Shown here piece by piece: positions 5,340 through 11,279 of a stretch of DNA of 11,279 bases. This DNA is from an uncultured Blautia sp. (GTDB lineage Bacteria; Bacillota; Clostridia; Lachnospirales; Lachnospiraceae): NCBI GenBank assembly GCA_934371915.1, contig CAKROE010000076.1, positions 1 through 11,279 on the forward strand, read 5' to 3'. Numbering within the stretch: position 1 is the stretch's first letter; each line of letters opens with the position of its first letter. The position numbers and the translations under genes are program-made. The notes under the pieces were generated by a model. It saw only the letters and a program-made list of their open reading frames with translations. It had not been told where the DNA came from and ran no database searches.

Positions 5340-7367
5340 ATGAAGGAACTGAAAAATAGAGGCAGGCAGAGATGGAGGGATTATATCTGCCTGTTCGTTT
5401 CGTTTTTATTTGTTTTATATTTTGGATTTAATTATAAAAGTATCATATACGACTCAAACACTTTGGGAAATGGAATAAAAATATTTGTTCTTGCAGGCCT
5501 GTGGGCAATCGGCACAGTACTTATTTTTGTAAAACTGGAAGTAAAAGAAAAGATCGGTCGGATCATAAATATCCTGTATGTGATTTTGTCTCCATGTTTC
5601 ATTTTTCTGAATATGGAAGCAGCTACATTTACAATGGGAAAAAGCTTTTCCGGATTGAATAAAAGTCTTTTGCTTTTTAATATAGGTTTTATTTTAATAT
5701 TAGAATTGATATGTATTGTTCTTACAAACAGAATACGACTGGGAACTGACATTTGCGCTTTTATATGTGTTATGTTCAATATTGCAAACCATTTTATATA
5801 TGAGTTCAGAGGAACTCCGATCATTGCCTCTGATATTGCAACTATAAGCACAGCGGCAGAGGTTGCGTCTTCATACGAAATAAAATTTAACTGGTATTTG
5901 CTGGTTACACTGTTGCTTCTGTTTGATTTCTTTATGGTTGGCAGAGTTATAAAATGTAAACCTGTTTTCAGTAAAAAGAAATTTCGACTTTGCGGAATCA
6001 TTGTAATGGCCATTATATCGGTAGTAGGTGTACAACAATTCATCCTTTCGGATTATCTTGATAATCATGGGCTGAATCTGAGTCTGTTTAACCCAATGAG
6101 AAGTTATCGAACATATGGCAGTATTGCAGGTTTTTCACGAAGCATTCATTATTCTATACTGAAAAAACCAGAAGGCTACAGCCTCGAAAAAGTCGAAGAA
6201 ATTACTTCAAAATATGAATCAGATACAGTGGATAAAACCAAGGAACATCCGAATGTGATCGTGGTGATCAATGAAGCATTTTCAGATCTGAAGACACTGG
6301 GTGACTTTGAAACAAACGAAGATTATATGCCGTTTATCCATGGACTGATGAATGATAAAAATTGTGTAAGCGGTACAACGTATGCGTCTATTGTAGGCGG
6401 ACAGACAGCAAATACAGAATACGAATTTCTGACGGGAAATTCACTTGCATTTCTGCCGACGGGCTCGGTTGCATTCCAGCTTTTTGTAAAAGATGCAATG
6501 CCGTCACTTGTGACACAGCTTCAGGATGAAGAGTACATGGGAAGTACTGCGATTCATCTTCATCGAGCAAGCAATTACAGACGTGACAGAGCGTATCCGT
6601 TGCTTGGATTTAAAAACTTCTACAATTATGATACGGTAACGACTCCGATAGAAAAACTGAGACATTATGCTACAGATGCAGGTTCTTATCAGCGTATCAT
6701 TGAAGATTTTGAAAGCTATAAGAAGGATTCAGATGATCCGTATCTTGGATATGTCATGACAGTGCAGAATCACAGCCCGTTTATCAGCAGAGGTGATGAA
6801 AATTATACTCAGACAATTTCACTTAAAGACATAAAAGCAGAAGACGTAGAAACATATCTGAGCCTGATTAAATTGTCAGATGATGCTTTTAAAGATATGG
6901 TGGAATATTTCAAAAATGTAGATGAACCGACTGTGATATTTATGACAGGAGATCATCAGCCGAGGATTAACGATGCTTCCATGAATGCACTTACAAAGGG
7001 GCAATATAAGAACTGGAATGATGAAGAAATGATGCGTCATCGTTATGCGATTCCTTTTATGATCTGGGCAAACTATGACATTGGTGGTCAGAAAGTAGAG
7101 CAGACCAGCATGAATTACCTTCAGACACTTCTCATGGAAACGACAGGAAGTGAACTGACCGGTTTTCAGAAATATCAGCAGGATCTGCAGAAGGAGATTC
7201 CGGTACTGACAGGAAACGGGTATGTCGGAGCTGACGGAAAGTTCTATGAGCTGAATGATGAGACATCACCATATTATTCATTACTTCAGGACTATTCGAT
7301 CTTGCAGTATAATGATCTGGTTGATACAAAAAATCGTGATAACGACTTTTTCAATCTTCAAAAATAA
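5340..7367 (+). CDS. LtaS-like sulfatase-fold phosphoglycerol transferase
   Basis: 675 aa. Six or seven hydrophobic segments (about 14-32, 46-65, 75-92, 109-128, 137-153, 185-203, 217-235) precede an extracellular sulfatase/alkaline-phosphatase-fold domain. The metal and catalytic set of lipoteichoic acid synthases is visible: NEAF with E312, GGQTANTEYE with T356 as the likely nucleophile, NHSPF with H478, and GDHQP with D538 and H539. Such enzymes (COG1368) move glycerol-phosphate from phosphatidylglycerol onto a glycolipid, polymer or glycan. With more N-terminal segments than the five of S. aureus LtaS, and an asparagine- and aspartate-rich C-terminal tail, the acceptor is uncertain, so I give no ltaS symbol. 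The RBS (GAGG, 5329-5332) is weaker than those upstream. It is the last gene of the operon. Confidence 0.88.
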   Translation: MKELKNRGRQRWRDYICLFVSFLFVLYFGFNYKSIIYDSNTLGNGIKIFVLAGLWAIGTVLIFVKLEVKEKIGRIINILYVILSPCFIFLNMEAATFTMGKSFSGLNKSLLLFNIGFILILELICIVLTNRIRLGTDICAFICVMFNIANHFIYEFRGTPIIASDIATISTAAEVASSYEIKFNWYLLVTLLLLFDFFMVGRVIKCKPVFSKKKFRLCGIIVMAIISVVGVQQFILSDYLDNHGLNLSLFNPMRSYRTYGSIAGFSRSIHYSILKKPEGYSLEKVEEITSKYESDTVDKTKEHPNVIVVINEAFSDLKTLGDFETNEDYMPFIHGLMNDKNCVSGTTYASIVGGQTANTEYEFLTGNSLAFLPTGSVAFQLFVKDAMPSLVTQLQDEEYMGSTAIHLHRASNYRRDRAYPLLGFKNFYNYDTVTTPIEKLRHYATDAGSYQRIIEDFESYKKDSDDPYLGYVMTVQNHSPFISRGDENYTQTISLKDIKAEDVETYLSLIKLSDDAFKDMVEYFKNVDEPTVIFMTGDHQPRINDASMNALTKGQYKNWNDEEMMRHRYAIPFMIWANYDIGGQKVEQTSMNYLQTLLMETTGSELTGFQKYQQDLQKEIPVLTGNGYVGADGKFYELNDETSPYYSLLQDYSILQYNDLVDTKNRDNDFFNLQK

Positions 7368-7449: not shown

Positions 7450-7560
7450 GTTTCCTTAGTTAAATGGATATAGCAAGTGCCTCCTAAGCGGTGACCAGAG
7501 TTATCGCCTCGGCATATAACAGAAAAATGAATTTGAGTTCGATTCTGTTATGTGATGTCA
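7450..7560 (+). pseudogene. tRNA-Arg(CCU)-like relic, 5' half only
   Basis: Positions 7456-7489 match the 5' half of the intact tRNA-Arg at 7728-7761 in 31 of 34 bases, through D-arm and anticodon loop CTCCTAA. The three differences all fall in the D-arm and keep the D-stem paired (GTTA with TAGC). Right after the anticodon core CTCCTAAGC similarity stops. The 3' half instead contains a 12-bp stem between CATATAACAGAA (7513-7524) and TTCTGTTATGTG (about 7543-7554) and only a T-loop-like TTCGATT, without a 3' acceptor strand for GTTTCCT. It cannot form a cloverleaf, so it is a relic or recombination scar. Confidence 0.6.
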
Positions 7561-7562
7561 CA

Positions 7563-7721
7563 ATTAAGGGGACATGCGTTTTTGGAAAAGGCGAAAGCTT
7601 CATACCAAAAAATCTCATCATATAAGATTGATTCAGCTGACGTAAGTCAGTTTTAAATCATAAAATCCAATGCCGTTGAAATGGCTGAAAACCTTGATTT
7701 TAAGCCAAAAATCCGGTATCT
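7563..7721 (+). other. Gene-free spacer before tRNA-Arg, with hairpin
   Basis: No coding frame is supported. A hairpin CTGAC-GTAA-GTCAG (7637-7650), followed by TTTT and flanked by TGATT (7629-7633) and AATCA (7656-7660), may be a weak terminator. A convincing promoter for the tRNA was not found. TTGAAA at 7676-7681 has only a poor -10 partner. Confidence 0.35.
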
Positions 7722-7793
7722 GTCCTGTTAGTTTAATGGATAGAACAAGTGCCTCCTAAGCACTAGATGTGGGTTCGATTCCCGCACGGGACG
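7722..7793 (+). tRNA. tRNA-Arg, anticodon CCU
   Basis: A full 72-nt cloverleaf folds by hand. The acceptor stem is GTCCTGT with ACGGGAC (one G-U), the D-stem GTTT with GAAC, and the anticodon stem AGTGC with GCACT around CTCCTAA, giving anticodon CCT at 34-36. The variable loop is AGAT, the T-stem GTGGG with CCCGC around TTCGATT, and the discriminator base is G. It decodes AGG codons. The 3' CCA is not encoded (TCC follows), so it must be added after transcription. A strong terminator follows immediately. tRNA-Arg(CCU) genes are frequent integration targets for islands, which fits the damaged copies on both sides. Confidence 0.95.
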
Positions 7794-7801
7794 TCCTATC
7801 A

Positions 7802-7856
7802 AAAGCGGAATGTATTAGAAAAATTTCTAATATGATTTCCGCTTTTTTGTTTTTTC
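7802..7856 (+). terminator. Strong rho-independent terminator after tRNA-Arg
   Basis: AAAGCGGAA (7802-7810) pairs with TTCCGCTTT (7837-7845). A second perfect 8-bp stem, ATTAGAAA (7814-7821) with TTTCTAAT (7824-7831), caps it. Two T-runs follow (7843-7848 and 7851-7856). Confidence 0.92.
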
Positions 7857-8191
7857 AAGGGGAAAATGGAATGGAATATCAGCTAATACGGAAAGGATCC
7901 TATTAGCCGCTGTCTAATAAAACGCACTGCTGGTATAATAGCTGGAAATAAATCGAAATTCTAATAAAAGAGAAAAGTCAGCTGTTTATTTGAGAAAGTG
8001 GATGTAAATTCAAGCTCAAATAAGAAAAAAGAGGAAGGGAAATATCCGGTGGTAAGTTATTAGGTGTGAATACAATAGAATCTTTGCTTAGTGAGAACTA
8101 GGGTCAACAGTAAGCCTGTTTGGATCAGATTTTAAAAAGAAATCTATCTGGACATGCTTTTTTTGTTGCAGATAAGAAATGGAGGAAAGAT
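7857..8191 (+). other. Degenerate spacer between tRNA and mobile debris
   Basis: No supported gene. Short frames only. One of them, GGKLLGVNTIESLLSEN ending at about 8100, looks like the start of an element-type ParB but is not in frame with the ParB fragment that follows, so it could be a broken piece of the same gene. No clear insertion-sequence ends were seen. Confidence 0.4.
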
Positions 8192-8290
8192 ATGGATATA
8201 GTGGCATCAGTTCCAGAAGATGGCGAAAAAATCATAGAGATTCAGTTGGAACGTCTGCGGACCTTTAAGAACCATCCGTTTAAGGTTCGG
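8192..8290 (+). pseudogene. Fragment of an element-type ParB-like protein
   Basis: An ATG at 8192 with GGAGG at 8181-8185 begins about 32 residues: MDIVASVPEDGEKI, then IEIQLERLRTFKNHPFKV. The stretch ending in FKNHPFKV is the signature of ParB/nucleoid-occlusion-like proteins carried by integrative conjugative elements, where the next residues are normally an acidic stretch and a SIKEYGV-like helix. Here the ParB-like reading ends at about 8287 and the DNA passes into IS66 transposase sequence in another frame. The frame runs on to a stop at 8362 as nonsense. It is distinct from the chromosomal ParB at 1616-2557, and the good RBS suggests it was once the gene's true start. Confidence 0.6.
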
Positions 8291-8580
8291 ATGCACTGGT
8301 GCAGGAAATGGTCCACTTCCGAAATGGATGCCGGCAGCCACACGGACCAGATCCGGAAATAGTCTCCGGATTCGAAAAACGATACCGTGAGATACTGGAA
8401 ATTGCCCGGAAAGAATATGAAGACATTTCGGCAAATGATTATTATAAAGACGGGTACAATTTATTCCTGAGAATGGAGAAATACATGCACAACCATCTGT
8501 TGTTCCTGCATGATATCCGGGTACCTGCCACGAATAATGAAGCCGAAAGGCTTCTAAGGAATTATAAGCGGAAACAGTAA
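8290..8580 (+). pseudogene. IS66-family transposase, C-terminal fragment
   Basis: Reading from about 8293 in the frame that ends at TAA 8578-8580 gives LVQEMVHFRN, then FEKRYREILEIARKEYEDI, YYKDGYNLFLRMEKYMHNH, LLFLHDIRVP and ATNNEAERLLRNYKRKQ. This is the end of the DDE catalytic domain of IS66 transposases, including the glutamate of NNEAER. The N-terminal zinc-binding part, the first catalytic aspartates and the last roughly 50-60 residues are missing, so it is inactive. The 5' end is joined to a ParB-like fragment at about 8288-8293 and the 3' end stops abruptly after KRKQ, where unrelated DNA begins. No IS66 terminal repeats were found. Confidence 0.88.
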
Positions 8581-8614
8581 TTTCCCAGTTTTCTTGCTCT
8601 TCCTCTATTGCCAT

Positions 8615-8643
8615 TTGATAATACTTATGCTATTCTTTTTAAT
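8615..8643 (+). promoter_or_regulatory. Predicted promoter of the 136-aa membrane protein
   Basis: TTGATA (8615-8620) and TTTAAT (8638-8643) are separated by 17 bp, each one base or so from consensus. The gene starts at 8680. Confidence 0.55.
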
Positions 8644-8679
8644 AATATTGGAGGGGAAATCTATAGAAGGAGTAATTCT

Positions 8680-9090
8680 ATGATTAACTTACACAAATCC
8701 AGAAGAAATTGTATCCTCATATTTGTCATAGTTTGTATATTAGGAATGTGTTTTGATTCATATCAAACAGATTCCTCTTTGTGTTCTTTCATCCAAACAG
8801 ATTCCGTCCATTTCCACTCTAATCAGATTAAGGTATCAGTAAATAATTCTGCCTGTACCCAGGAAATGTTGCAAGGCCGTGTGTACAGTCTTTTTGAACA
8901 TTTCTTTTCACGTAGTACAAATGCAGAAAACTATATCTGTAAACCTGATTATAATCTGAATCCCAATATTTTCCTTAGTCTTTCACAGGGATTCTATTCT
9001 GTTTATTCAATAATTTTGTTTTGTCCTGAATTACTGGATAAAAATATCGTCAAATATCTCCACAAATCGGATGGCAAAAAAAGACTTTAA
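8680..9090 (+). CDS. Small membrane/secreted protein, unknown function
   Basis: 136 aa when started at ATG 8680, chosen because AAGGAG (8667-8672) precedes it by seven bases. A longer TTG frame from 8608 has no such site. Basic residues (HKSRRN) followed by a hydrophobic stretch at about 11-25 (CILIFVIVCILGMCF) make a signal peptide or first membrane segment. The middle is polar, with cysteines (C24, SLCSF, SACTQEML, ICKPD). A second moderately hydrophobic stretch lies at about 97-117 (NIFLSLSQGFYSVYSIILF), and the tail is YLHKSDGKK. I do not recognise a named family. The tail motif HxxDGKK reminds me of uncharacterised small Lachnospiraceae membrane proteins. It has its own promoter and a likely terminator, so it may be a separate unit from the pyk cassette downstream. 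Confidence 0.7.
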   Translation: MINLHKSRRNCILIFVIVCILGMCFDSYQTDSSLCSFIQTDSVHFHSNQIKVSVNNSACTQEMLQGRVYSLFEHFFSRSTNAENYICKPDYNLNPNIFLSLSQGFYSVYSIILFCPELLDKNIVKYLHKSDGKKRL

Positions 9091-9108
9091 TCTTGATTTC
9101 CTATTCAT

Positions 9109-9133
9109 CCCATTATAATAATGGGCTATTTTT
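9109..9133 (+). terminator. Probable rho-independent terminator
   Basis: CCCATT (9109-9114) pairs with AATGGG (9120-9125) around a 5-nt loop and is followed by CTATTTTT. It lies 19 bases after the preceding stop codon. The stem is short, so efficiency may be modest. Confidence 0.65.
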
Positions 9134-9155
9134 GATGCAAAAAAATGTGTATATT

Positions 9156-9189
9156 TCAGGCTCTGCCTGATTTATATCAGGTAACCTGA
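9156..9189 (+). promoter_or_regulatory. Two tandem palindromes in the pyk leader
   Basis: TCAGGCTCTGCCTGA (9156-9170) and TCAGGTAACCTGA (9177-9189) are both palindromic, share half-sites TCAGG and CCTGA, and have centres 20 bp apart, about two helical turns. As DNA this looks like a double operator. As RNA the arms could pair within each palindrome or the first TCAGG with the last CCTGA. The cassette's first gene starts at 9205, with its RBS directly after the second palindrome. A TATATT (9150-9155) lies upstream, but I could not find a good -35. Confidence 0.5.
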
Positions 9190-9204
9190 GGAAATGGAGA
9201 AAAA

Positions 9205-9348
9205 ATGGGTCTGGATATTTTTGTAGGAATTTTATGTATATTAGCTTTAGGTGCCTGCGCATGGGCATGGTGGATGAACAGGGGAGATTCTGCCAGCAAA
9301 AATGATCATTCCAACGAAAGCGAGGTTAAGAAGCATGAGAAAAACTAA
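9205..9348 (+). CDS. 47-aa tryptophan-rich membrane microprotein
   Basis: MGLDIFVGILCILALGACAW begins a hydrophobic helix (about residues 4-23), followed by AWWMNRG and a charged, hydrophilic tail (KNDHSNESEVKKHEKN). The ATG at 9205 has GGAGA at 9196-9200. The stop TAA (9346-9348) lies 14 bases inside pyk, which is read in another frame, so translation of the two is probably coupled. The layout, a single N-terminal membrane helix closed by tryptophans with a polar tail, suggests a small inner-membrane protein. I know no named family and assign no function. The good start signal and the overlap argue that it is real. Confidence 0.65.
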   Translation: MGLDIFVGILCILALGACAWAWWMNRGDSASKNDHSNESEVKKHEKN

Positions 9349-10747
9349 ACTTATTTGTACTATTGGTCCAGCATGTGAAAATGAACAGATACTGGAAGAA
9401 ATGTGTCAGGCAGGAATGAATGTTGCACGGTTAAATTTTTCTCATGGAACTCATGAAGAACATGGAAAGAAAATAAAACTCATAAAAAGAGTCCGGGAAA
9501 AGCTTCATCTTCCTATTCCAATCATGCTGGATACCAAAGGACCAGAATATCGTATCCGCACTTTCAGAAATCAGAAAATTCTTCTTCATGACGGTGATGA
9601 ATTTACCTTTACCACAGAAGATATAATTGGGGATGAACATATTGTTTCCGTCAACTATAAACAGCTGATGGAAAATCTGGAAATTGGAGATACGATTCTT
9701 GTAAACAACGGTTTGGTCATTTTTAAAGTTATTAGTCTTACCCCCACCTGTGCGAAATGTAAAGTTGTTGTTGGCGGTGAACTTTCCAACTGTAAAAGCA
9801 TGAATTTTCCAAATAGAATAATGAAGCATGAATTTTTGAGCGATCAGGATAAGAAAGATTTGTTGTTTGGTATTAAAAACCAGATTGATTTTGTAGCTGC
9901 TTCTTTCGTTTCATGTAAACAGGATATGCTGGACATACGAACTTTCTTAGACGCTAACACTGGAAAGGACATTGATATCATTGCTAAAATAGAAAACCGT
10001 TCCGGTGTAGACAATATTGATGAGATTTGTGAAGTGGCTGACGGAATTATGATTGCCAGAGGCGATCTCGGTGTAGAAATTCCAGCTATGGAAGTCCCAA
10101 GCATTCAGAAATATCTCATCCAGAAATGCCGTATGCTCGGCAAACGTGTTATCACCGCAACAGAAATGCTTGAATCCATGATTTATAACCCCAGGCCAAC
10201 AAGGGCAGAATTATCCGACATCGCCAACGCTGTTTATGATGAAACCTCTGCTGTAATGCTGTCTGGCGAAACAGCTTCTGGAAAATATCCGGTTGCTGCT
10301 GTAAAAAATATGGTAGAAACAATTACTTTTACAGAAAAAAATATCCCCTACGACAAACGTTTTAAGACAGCCGAATTTGCAATAAATAATAATCTGGATG
10401 CTGTTTCACACTCAGCCTGTGCCATGGCTACAGATCTGAAGGCCAAATTTATCATTGTAAACTCCCTGTCCGGACATACAGCCCGAATGGTCAGCAGGTT
10501 TCGCTGTCCCGTAGATATCATTGGTATGACGTATTCTGAAGGGGGCTGGCGAAAACTTAATCTGAGCTGGGGCGTAATCCCGATTCTGTGTGGTAAATTT
10601 AATTCCATGGAGGCAATGTTCCAACATGACCTTTCAAAAGTTCAAGAAGTATTCCCCCTGAAAACAGGCGATAATCTTGTTCTTACTGGAGGAGTGGTAA
10701 ATGGAAGTACCGGTAATACAAACCTTCTGAAAGTTGAACAGATTTAA
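9335..10747 (+). CDS. pyk: Pyruvate kinase
   Basis: 470 aa starting at ATG 9335 (MRKTKLICTIGPACEN), the standard N terminus. An upstream in-frame start at 9302 would add only an unrelated leader. GAGG at 9322-9325 is the RBS. The enzyme converts phosphoenolpyruvate and ADP to pyruvate and ATP in glycolysis. Active-site features are present: R32 with NFSHG (34-38), catalytic K218 and metal ligand E220 in AKIENRSGV, D244 in ARGDLGVE, and T276 in ATEMLESM. The usual glutamine after this threonine is glutamate here, YDETSAVMLSGE replaces the common LDGTDAVMLSGE, and LDTKGPEYR replaces LDTKGPEIR. The C-terminal domain keeps SGHTARMVSRFR. The PEP-utiliser extension found in many Bacillota enzymes is absent. 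The location among mobile debris suggests an accessory second copy. Confidence 0.95.
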   Translation: MRKTKLICTIGPACENEQILEEMCQAGMNVARLNFSHGTHEEHGKKIKLIKRVREKLHLPIPIMLDTKGPEYRIRTFRNQKILLHDGDEFTFTTEDIIGDEHIVSVNYKQLMENLEIGDTILVNNGLVIFKVISLTPTCAKCKVVVGGELSNCKSMNFPNRIMKHEFLSDQDKKDLLFGIKNQIDFVAASFVSCKQDMLDIRTFLDANTGKDIDIIAKIENRSGVDNIDEICEVADGIMIARGDLGVEIPAMEVPSIQKYLIQKCRMLGKRVITATEMLESMIYNPRPTRAELSDIANAVYDETSAVMLSGETASGKYPVAAVKNMVETITFTEKNIPYDKRFKTAEFAINNNLDAVSHSACAMATDLKAKFIIVNSLSGHTARMVSRFRCPVDIIGMTYSEGGWRKLNLSWGVIPILCGKFNSMEAMFQHDLSKVQEVFPLKTGDNLVLTGGVVNGSTGNTNLLKVEQI

Positions 10748-10768
10748 TCCCTGTATAAATCAATCCCC

Positions 10769-10805
10769 TAATCATGACCACCGGCTAAGCCGGTGGTCGT
10801 GATTA
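10769..10805. repeat. 37-nt near-perfect palindrome after pyk
   Basis: Arms TAATCATGACCACCGGC (10769-10785) and GCCGGTGGTCGTGATTA (10789-10805) pair over 17 positions with one T-G pair and a TAA loop. It follows the pyk stop by 21 bases but has no U-tract. It could block exonucleases at the mRNA end or be the subterminal hairpin of an IS200/IS605-like element or derived repeat. I favour a combined palindromic-repeat origin, without proof. Confidence 0.75.
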
Positions 10806-10991
10806 TGAGATCAAGTCAGAGCATGTGAGAAAAAAGAGGTAAAATAGTGGTCAAAGCATCTTGCGTAAATGGCGGTATCTGATGTATTTATTTTCTCAGA
10901 AAATGTAAAAATCCGGAATAATTTTCAATGATCTTATATGAACAGAAATAGTCTGGGAAGGCGCTTTTTTACTGGACTTATAAGTGAATAG
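10806..10991. other. Gene-free stretch, nothing recognised
   Basis: AT-rich, with no open frame of note on either strand, no strong hairpin and no convincing promoter. The only run is CGCTTTTTT at about 10961-10970, without a clear stem. Confidence 0.5.
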
Positions 10992-11073
10992 GTTGTCTCT
11001 GTTGGACTAGTATGAACCTGCATAAAAGTTGCTCCTAAGCGAGGGGTCGGAGGTTCAAATCCTCTTGGCGACG
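10992..11073 (+). pseudogene. Degenerate tRNA-Arg(CCU)-like sequence
   Basis: The 3' end is well preserved: T-stem GGAGG (11049-11053) with CCTCT (11061-11065) around TTCAAAT, then TGGCGAC and G, as in a tRNA acceptor. The 5' strand GTTGTCT pairs with it in six of seven positions, counting wobbles. The anticodon-loop core CTCCTAAGC (11032-11040) matches tRNA-Arg(CCU), but the anticodon stem does not pair around a 7-nt loop, and the part between acceptor and T-stem is about ten bases too long. I read it as a dead tRNA-Arg(CCU) copy, different in T-arm from the intact gene at 7722 and so perhaps brought in or left by an element. Confidence 0.6.
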
Positions 11074-11079
11074 GGCTTC

Positions 11080-11135
11080 AAAGCGTTCGAAAATGTTAGC
11101 TGGATTAGCTGACAACGAGCGCTTTTGTTATTTTC
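11080..11135 (+). terminator. Strong rho-independent terminator after tRNA relic
   Basis: AAAGCGTTCG (11080-11089) pairs with CGAGCGCTTT (11116-11125). TGTTAGCT (11094-11101) pairs with AGCTGACA (11107-11114) above it. GCTTTTGTTATTTTC follows. The two-storey design resembles the terminator after the intact tRNA-Arg. Confidence 0.85.
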
Positions 11136-11192
11136 TAATCACGTTCGTGACACTAAATTCCATTCAAAATGATCAATTTCCAGCTAACATTT
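11091..11192. repeat. 13-bp inverted repeat spanning the terminator
   Basis: AAATGTTAGCTGG (11091-11103) is the exact reverse complement of CCAGCTAACATTT (11180-11192). The left copy overlaps the upper terminator stem, so the distant right copy could compete with terminator formation, or the pair could be ends of a roughly 100-bp miniature element. Within it is the palindrome TCACGTTCGTGA (11139-11150). Confidence 0.55.
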
Positions 11193-11279
11193 GGGTTCCG
11201 CCCTGTTGTCACCCCTTATTCGGGGATGTAAATCAGAGAAAAGGCGGGAAAAGAAACAATCTCTCCCAAACCTGCAAAC
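11136..11279. other. Right-edge non-coding stretch
   Basis: No supported gene. It contains a short hairpin CCCC-TTATTC-GGGG (about 11212-11225), GTTGTCA (11205-11211) complementary to TGACAAC (11110-11116), and the right arm of the 13-bp repeat. It may be the edge of a further element beyond the window. Confidence 0.4.

Follow-up and report, generated by a model that had tools for sequence, protein, structure and literature searches.

The stretch of DNA that we analyzed (hereafter the window), 11,279 nt from an uncultured Blautia sp., carries three consecutive genes, namely a leader ORF that we call A, a microprotein gene that we call B, and pyk, encoding pyruvate kinase (Table 1). ORF A had been overlooked in a first-pass annotation of this DNA, which had reported a 47-aa frame overlapping the start of pyk by 14 bases and two tandem palindromes in front of that frame, all of which are indeed present in the sequence. 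The strong hairpin 3' of pyk is likely to mark the end of the A-B-pyk unit. No riboswitch was found in the window, since Rfam at gathering thresholds returned tRNA only.

Table 1. Features of the A-B-pyk cassette (positions in the window)
Feature	Position	Strand	Basis
Leader ORF A, 136 aa, Shine-Dalgarno AGAAGGAG	8680..9090	+	36 matches at E ≤ 1e-5 in 397 genomes
Codons for YLHKSDGKK, candidate arrest motif of A	9055..9081	+	D, G, and last K invariant in 28-row alignment
5' arm at the stop codon of A, able to pair with the Shine-Dalgarno region of B	9086..9102	+	Inverted repeat I1, 76% complementary; predicted fold
Terminator-like hairpin CCCATTATAATAATGGG separating A from B	9109..9125	+	Inverted-repeat listing
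Tandem palindromes, interpreted as hairpins in the A-B leader RNA	9156..9189	+	Inverted repeats, fold
3' arm, i.e., the Shine-Dalgarno region of B (GGAG 9196-9199)	9189..9205	+	Inverted repeat, fold
Microprotein B, 47 aa, single hydrophobic helix with Trp, charged tail	9205..9348	+	
B/pyk overlap, 14 bases; nucleotides common to the last residues EKN of B and the MRKT start of pyk	9335..9348	+	
pyk, pyruvate kinase, 470 aa	9335..10747	+	
Strong hairpin 3' of pyk, AATCATGACCACCGGC-TAA-GCCGGTGGTCGTGATT	10770..10806	+	By eye

The pyk copy had been described as lying among mobile debris. There is an IS66-like fragment on one side and tRNA-like remnants on the other, and the stretch also has parA, parB, and serS. 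The remnants were recognized by eye, while the IS66 fragment is below threshold (E = 0.002) and the tRNA-Arg(CCT) is intact. This intact tRNA and two tRNA-Arg-like remnants lie around the cassette at 7457-7495, 7721-7796, and 11028-11075, as if tRNA-Arg had been a repeated integration site. A search of 7600-11279 for long direct repeats flanking the cassette yielded a single pair of 22 nt, 77% alike. In a relative, L111, the cassette lies in a glycolytic neighborhood, with enolase and phosphoglycerate mutase genes on either side, both on the opposite strand. Since the flanks differ between L111 and the window, the place of the cassette changes between relatives. Elsewhere in the window, 5340-7367 encodes a membrane protein with a sulfatase domain (PF00884, 3e-27), which we take to resemble enzymes of the lipoteichoic acid synthase type.

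The pyk gene encodes a complete pyruvate kinase, with barrel and alpha/beta domains over the cut-off (PF00224, 9e-120; PF02887, 3e-31), and it is similar to solved bacterial enzymes, the closest solved chain being 2e28 (E = 1.2e-118). Two oddities had been pointed out at conserved positions. The first, the glutamate in ATEML (E277), turns out to be normal for the subfamily, where it occurs in 79/79 sequences including the window. As for the second, DETS, in the 41 of these 79 sequences in which the motif could be read (the pattern missed 38), the window is the sole one with DETS and 27 have DGTS. DETS recurs in L111. Compared to known pyruvate kinases (PF00224/PF02887), the window enzyme differs by a G-to-E change common to L111, and its gene differs by being situated behind an A-B leader. 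Between the window and L111, dN/dS is 0.045 for pyk, with saturated dS. As for a second pyk, the search covered six genomes with A before this pyk subfamily, several of them being draft or metagenome assemblies. Further matches to the pyruvate kinase barrel were found in G001, G003, G004 (fragments in this last case), and G016, and one match each in G002 and G021.

The two palindromes, TCAGGCTCTGCCTGA (9156-9170) and TCAGGTAACCTGA (9177-9189), are near-perfect TCAGG/CCTGA inverted repeats in tandem, and we presume that they resemble DtxR sites. They could be read as a DNA operator for the B-pyk transcript, bound for example by a DtxR/MntR-like regulator. We dropped this reading, which we regard as extremely improbable, because relatives with the same cassette do not have the palindromes: in L001-L004 and L078 the DNA in front of B lacks them, and L001 and L002 carry a different CCTG..CAGG hairpin instead. 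In L111, the CAGG/CCTG arms are kept with changed letters, and the second palindrome is altered to CAGACAGCCTG with an alternative stem pairing kept.

Conservation of microprotein B and ORF A

B was searched for in 397 genomes from the family to which G003, a Falcatimonas, belongs (Lachnospiraceae by inference), using a profile seeded with pyk-linked members, which includes the G003 match itself. This gave 21 matches at E < 1e-5 in 21/397 genomes. Between the window and L111, dN/dS is 0.24 for B as a whole and 0.23 outside the overlap, with dS of 0.6-0.7. B is a real, conserved gene that is kept as a protein, and the earlier call of a hidden gene is thereby upheld. None of the 25 members that we searched has a convincing match to a known family. 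The best were a viral A13L model in 2/25 (best E = 0.00075) and Tetraspanin in 4/25 (best E = 0.021), which we took as chance likeness between single helices, and the rest were single matches. One homolog, at L120:6755-7144 on the minus strand, has a long repeated charged tail.

The first-pass annotation had suggested that the peptide possibly tethers or regulates the enzyme. A dedicated partnership of the two is not supported by our data. A B frame is indeed found upstream of this pyk in L001, L002, L003, L004, and L078, but the other 73 of 78 subfamily loci do not have it (by eye; L040 and L064, with a short or truncated 5' side, were left out of the 80 pyk loci). The 14-base overlap is conserved in L001, L002, L004, and L111, whereas B ends before pyk in L003 and L078. 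Among the 21 clear B loci, one of which (L101) ends just past B, it is only at L081, L082, L084, and L096 that this pyk lies no more than 1.5 kb away. The other loci have B before genes for a Na/Pi cotransporter, DUF368, a Na/Ca exchanger, YitT, or further proteins (by eye, several being confirmed by profile). While the overlap would fit with a microprotein tethering or regulating pyruvate kinase at the membrane, as would the A and B-like ORFs found in G057 before a different pyk subfamily, we consider this very unlikely in view of the 4/21 B loci and 5/78 pyk loci in which the two adjoin, and of G190, where A precedes pyk without B.

The companion of B is ORF A, which was found in 18/21 B loci (16 by motif and 2 by inspection). 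The loci without A are L112, L118, and L126. In L118 and L126, B comes after genes that by eye resemble those for KdpD/KdpE-type sensors, and in L126 a gene for a Na/Pi-like cotransporter sits in between.

When the 397 genomes were searched with a profile of A, 32 of them yielded matches at E ≤ 1e-5. Of these 36 matches in total, 16 were already in the search profile and 20 are new. In a search of 391 genomes of the wider class, the two matches below 1e-5 came from G003 and G173, both of which are also in the family survey. No family could be confidently assigned to A in Pfam (best E = 0.029) or NCBIfam (best E = 0.0065, in 1/28 sequences). Compared to L111, A shows a dN/dS of 0.23, with saturated dS. 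Within A, a membrane/signal segment near the N terminus (about residues 10-28) is followed by a divergent middle and then by a conserved C-terminal tail. The hydropathy of an N-terminal 19-residue window is at least 1.6 in 38/39 sequences, the exception being L173 (0.80), which likely has a wrong start, and the distance from this segment to the tail exceeds 30 aa. A later hydrophobic segment, a possible pulled part, is clear (at least 1.4) in only 18/39.

The tail reads (I/V)xYIHxxDGKK near the stop, with the window A ending in DGKKRL. DGxK is present in 36/36 A's, where x is Met only once, and H occupies the third position before it in 33/36. The K of DGxK falls at residue 126-143 in 38/39 sequences, a range that is approximate because starts were picked by Shine-Dalgarno. 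The D, G, and final K are invariant in 28/28 aligned sequences, but their synonymous codons vary among 37 loci, so it is the peptide itself that is conserved. DGxK is the exact end in only 6/36 A's, while 29 add 1-15 residues and one adds 41. L116 and L123 have the DGKK-stop form.

Genes behind ORF A

On the same strand and within 3.5 kb 3' of A, the 36 loci have Na/Ca exchangers in eight cases and pyk in seven (six plus G190). Rarer families in the same span are Na/Pi cotransporters and CitMHS permeases (three each), DUF368 (two), and YitT, secD, and a P-type ATPase (one each), with some loci counting in more than one family. At least one of these eight families is found behind A in 21/36 loci (22 with G190) and in 13/20 of the new A's. 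Less than 2 kb of sequence is present 3' of A in 5/36 loci (G170, G306a, G027, G035, and G157). By comparison, none of the eight was found in 20 arbitrarily chosen 9.4-kb regions, picked by hand, from 11 of the same genomes. Since the families were chosen after the loci had been inspected, single neighbors prove nothing, but recurrences do. The pyk behind A in G057 and G190 belong to other subfamilies, with 47-48% identity to the window pyk (47% for G057, over the part read), and A has therefore been placed before pyk more than once.

The gene directly after A usually encodes a microprotein, which is B-like in 24/36 loci and a second type, C, in 8/36, with six loci having both and 10/36 neither. 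For these counts, matches were accepted at E ≤ 0.05 and within a span of 700 nt. Three of those to B are weak (E = 0.0003-0.006), and the profiles themselves contain many of the sequences. The C microproteins, which form another family without annotation, measure about 47-51 aa and share a tail resembling KIYRKIKYGxSLYD. C follows A in L113, L121, L123, L127, L128, L206, L209, L210, and L215, several times before a Na/Ca exchanger. Other single-helix microproteins, with tails like D(K/R)(I/M)L(P/S), come after A in L019, L217, and L221, and are possibly a third family.

Because B is tiny, single-helix, and patchy (21/397 genomes), and because the window site is near mobile remnants, A-B might be taken for a toxin-antitoxin-like or other selfish pair, with B a small hydrophobic toxin unrelated to its neighbors. 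We give this very little credence, since the neighbors recur (Na/Ca exchanger in 8/36 loci and pyk in 7/36), B is under purifying selection, and A stands before large genes without B or C in L207, L211, L216, L219, and L220.

Predicted RNA pairing between the end of A and the next Shine-Dalgarno

A stalling leader would be expected to have RNA just past its motif that masks the Shine-Dalgarno of the following gene. In the window, among the inverted repeats listed for 8800-9400, the longest links the stop of A (9086-9102) with the Shine-Dalgarno of B (9189-9205). We compared cognate arms with arms swapped between loci. In 21 loci, cognate arms gave -291.7 against a permuted mean of -215.7 (0/100000 permutations). 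The outcome was 0/100000 again in 32 loci, and 192/100000 in the 11 later-added loci alone. A second comparison, using dinucleotide shuffles of the 5' arm, was done in 37 loci, i.e., the 36 A loci minus L208, L122, L213, and L222 (dropped for a contig end, for an overlap, or for want of a clear gene behind A) plus five found through pyk (the window, L001, L002, L004, and L078). It gave a summed z of -7.6 (0/300), as against -0.9 for control pairing with a downstream coding segment. The pairing is uneven, with z above 0 in 9/37 loci, and for the window alone it is not significant (p = 0.23).

In the same 37 loci, masking the first 19 nt past the motif raised mean Shine-Dalgarno access by 0.271 with the own sequence and by 0.202 with foreign sequence, 402/20000 draws reaching the own value. 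Masks of 13 and 25 nt had a similar outcome (527/20000 and 365/20000). Own and foreign leaders differ significantly but only modestly because foreign leader segments also lower Shine-Dalgarno access. Over the locus set, the Shine-Dalgarno of the next gene is predicted to be hidden by RNA lying beyond the motif of A, heterogeneously between loci.

A as a candidate stalling leader

We propose, with reasonable confidence, that A is a leader of the arrest-peptide type that gates B by Shine-Dalgarno unmasking, with pyk following via the 14-base overlap. A-B-pyk would be a translationally controlled unit, in which the N-terminal segment of A is delivered to the membrane or translocon, and its DG(K)K tail near the stop arrests the ribosome in the absence of a pull on the nascent chain. 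When no ribosome is parked there, the RNA by the stop of A would pair with the Shine-Dalgarno of B, and B would be shut. A stalled ribosome would cover the 5' arm, which in the masking model would free the start of B, and pyk would then be translated by coupling through the overlap. Our computations show the conservation and layout of A, the recurring set of genes behind it, the cognate pairing over the locus set, and the overlap, while we infer that A itself stalls and that it is stalling, as opposed to termination alone, that opens the hairpin.

The main rival is plain translational coupling, in which A is an ordinary small membrane protein and termination at its stop melts the hairpin without any stalling. 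Coupling alone explains why a hairpin arm adjoins the stop of A in many loci, and 30/36 A's do not have the DGxK-stop arrangement. We nevertheless find this rather unlikely, because the pattern of A, i.e., a membrane segment, a divergent middle, and a near-invariant HxxDGxK mostly a few residues from the stop, is that of arrest peptides and not of a folded protein. In addition, the motif resembles one for which stalling has been shown experimentally (PMC10987492).

In that study, a screen of upstream ORFs before secA, secDF, and yidC uncovered uDF_DGMK-stop, a group of six clostridial secDF leaders with N-terminal localization signals. The one tested, with Lys139 in its motif, was found as peptidyl-tRNA in vitro, at about 30-50% with Escherichia coli ribosomes and more than 50% with Bacillus subtilis ribosomes. 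Stalling was affected by Ala changes at -4 to -1 and needed the stop codon (PMC10987492). A is similar to this group in its N-terminal localization signal, length (about 139 aa), C-terminal D-G-x-K, and occurrence in Clostridia, and one A precedes secD. It differs in that the published group ends in K-stop whereas 30/36 A's run past DGxK, and in that ion transporters, pyk, and microproteins lie behind A, with secD in 1/36 loci and not in the window. With only 6/36 A's ending at DGxK, many must stall during elongation, if they stall at all. A would then act like the uDF_DGMK-stop class, as which we do not file it (PMC10987492).

A can also be compared with SecM, MifM, VemP, and CliM, which like A are leader ORFs with a membrane-targeting N terminus and a conserved C-terminal tail, SecM moreover having RNA that hides the Shine-Dalgarno of the next gene (PMC10987492). 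Unlike theirs, the motif of A is DGxK and not RAGP/RAPP or KYxIW, and its downstream genes are mostly outside protein localization. CliM is a clostridial leader that also stalls, with a quite different motif (PMC13183943). In our literature search, which covered titles and the starts of abstracts of journal articles, none of the matches listed dealt with arrest peptides located upstream of genes for pyruvate kinase or for ion exchangers.

What A might sense can only be guessed. Since many of the downstream genes encode Na+, Ca2+, or phosphate transporters, the signal could be failing translocation or ion-gradient energization. Calcium is another guess, since Na/Ca exchangers are the commonest neighbors and Ca2+ inhibits pyruvate kinase. 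The precedent of VemP-SecDF2 in Vibrio, an arrest peptide responsive to Na+ supply via the Na+-driven SecDF, would also point to translocation or energization (PMC11470409). VemP controls secDF itself, whereas A precedes Na/Ca, Na/Pi, and CitMHS-type transporters and pyruvate kinase, and a signal common to both would be a guess by analogy (PMC11470409).

The leader, microprotein, and pyk of the window hint at an unrecognized switch between membrane state and metabolism, and similar leaders are found in front of genes for ion exchangers and, in one case, for protein export. Should A stall, sensing through the nascent chain would reach both metabolism and the ion balance of common gut bacteria, and B and C, as microproteins without annotation, would gain a testable place. 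Pyruvate kinase control would in that case link the state of the membrane with the PEP/ATP node. More tentatively, leaders with the HxxDGxK tail may sense membrane energization or ion gradients via translocation of their own nascent chain, and turn on, by Shine-Dalgarno unmasking, Na+/Ca2+ exchangers, Na+/phosphate and CitMHS-type transporters, B, C, and pyruvate kinase in Lachnospiraceae. This would amount to an arrest-peptide regulon, mostly outside protein localization, through which glycolysis is tied to ion homeostasis. PMC10987492 describes monitoring-type arrest peptides controlling secA, secDF, and yidC, with a large screen that covered only sequences upstream of those genes. Because the screen was limited in this way, leaders that act on ion exchangers and on an enzyme of glycolysis would lie beyond its reach.

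Upstream ORFs with DGxK were found before none of 30 other secD loci, a best-scoring sample in which the nearest ORFs of at least 70 aa were examined. The one A that does lie directly before secD (PF22599, 2e-25), in G157 (L170/L216), has the motif YIHRSDGKK and ends in YIHRSDGKKSNMFIFA.
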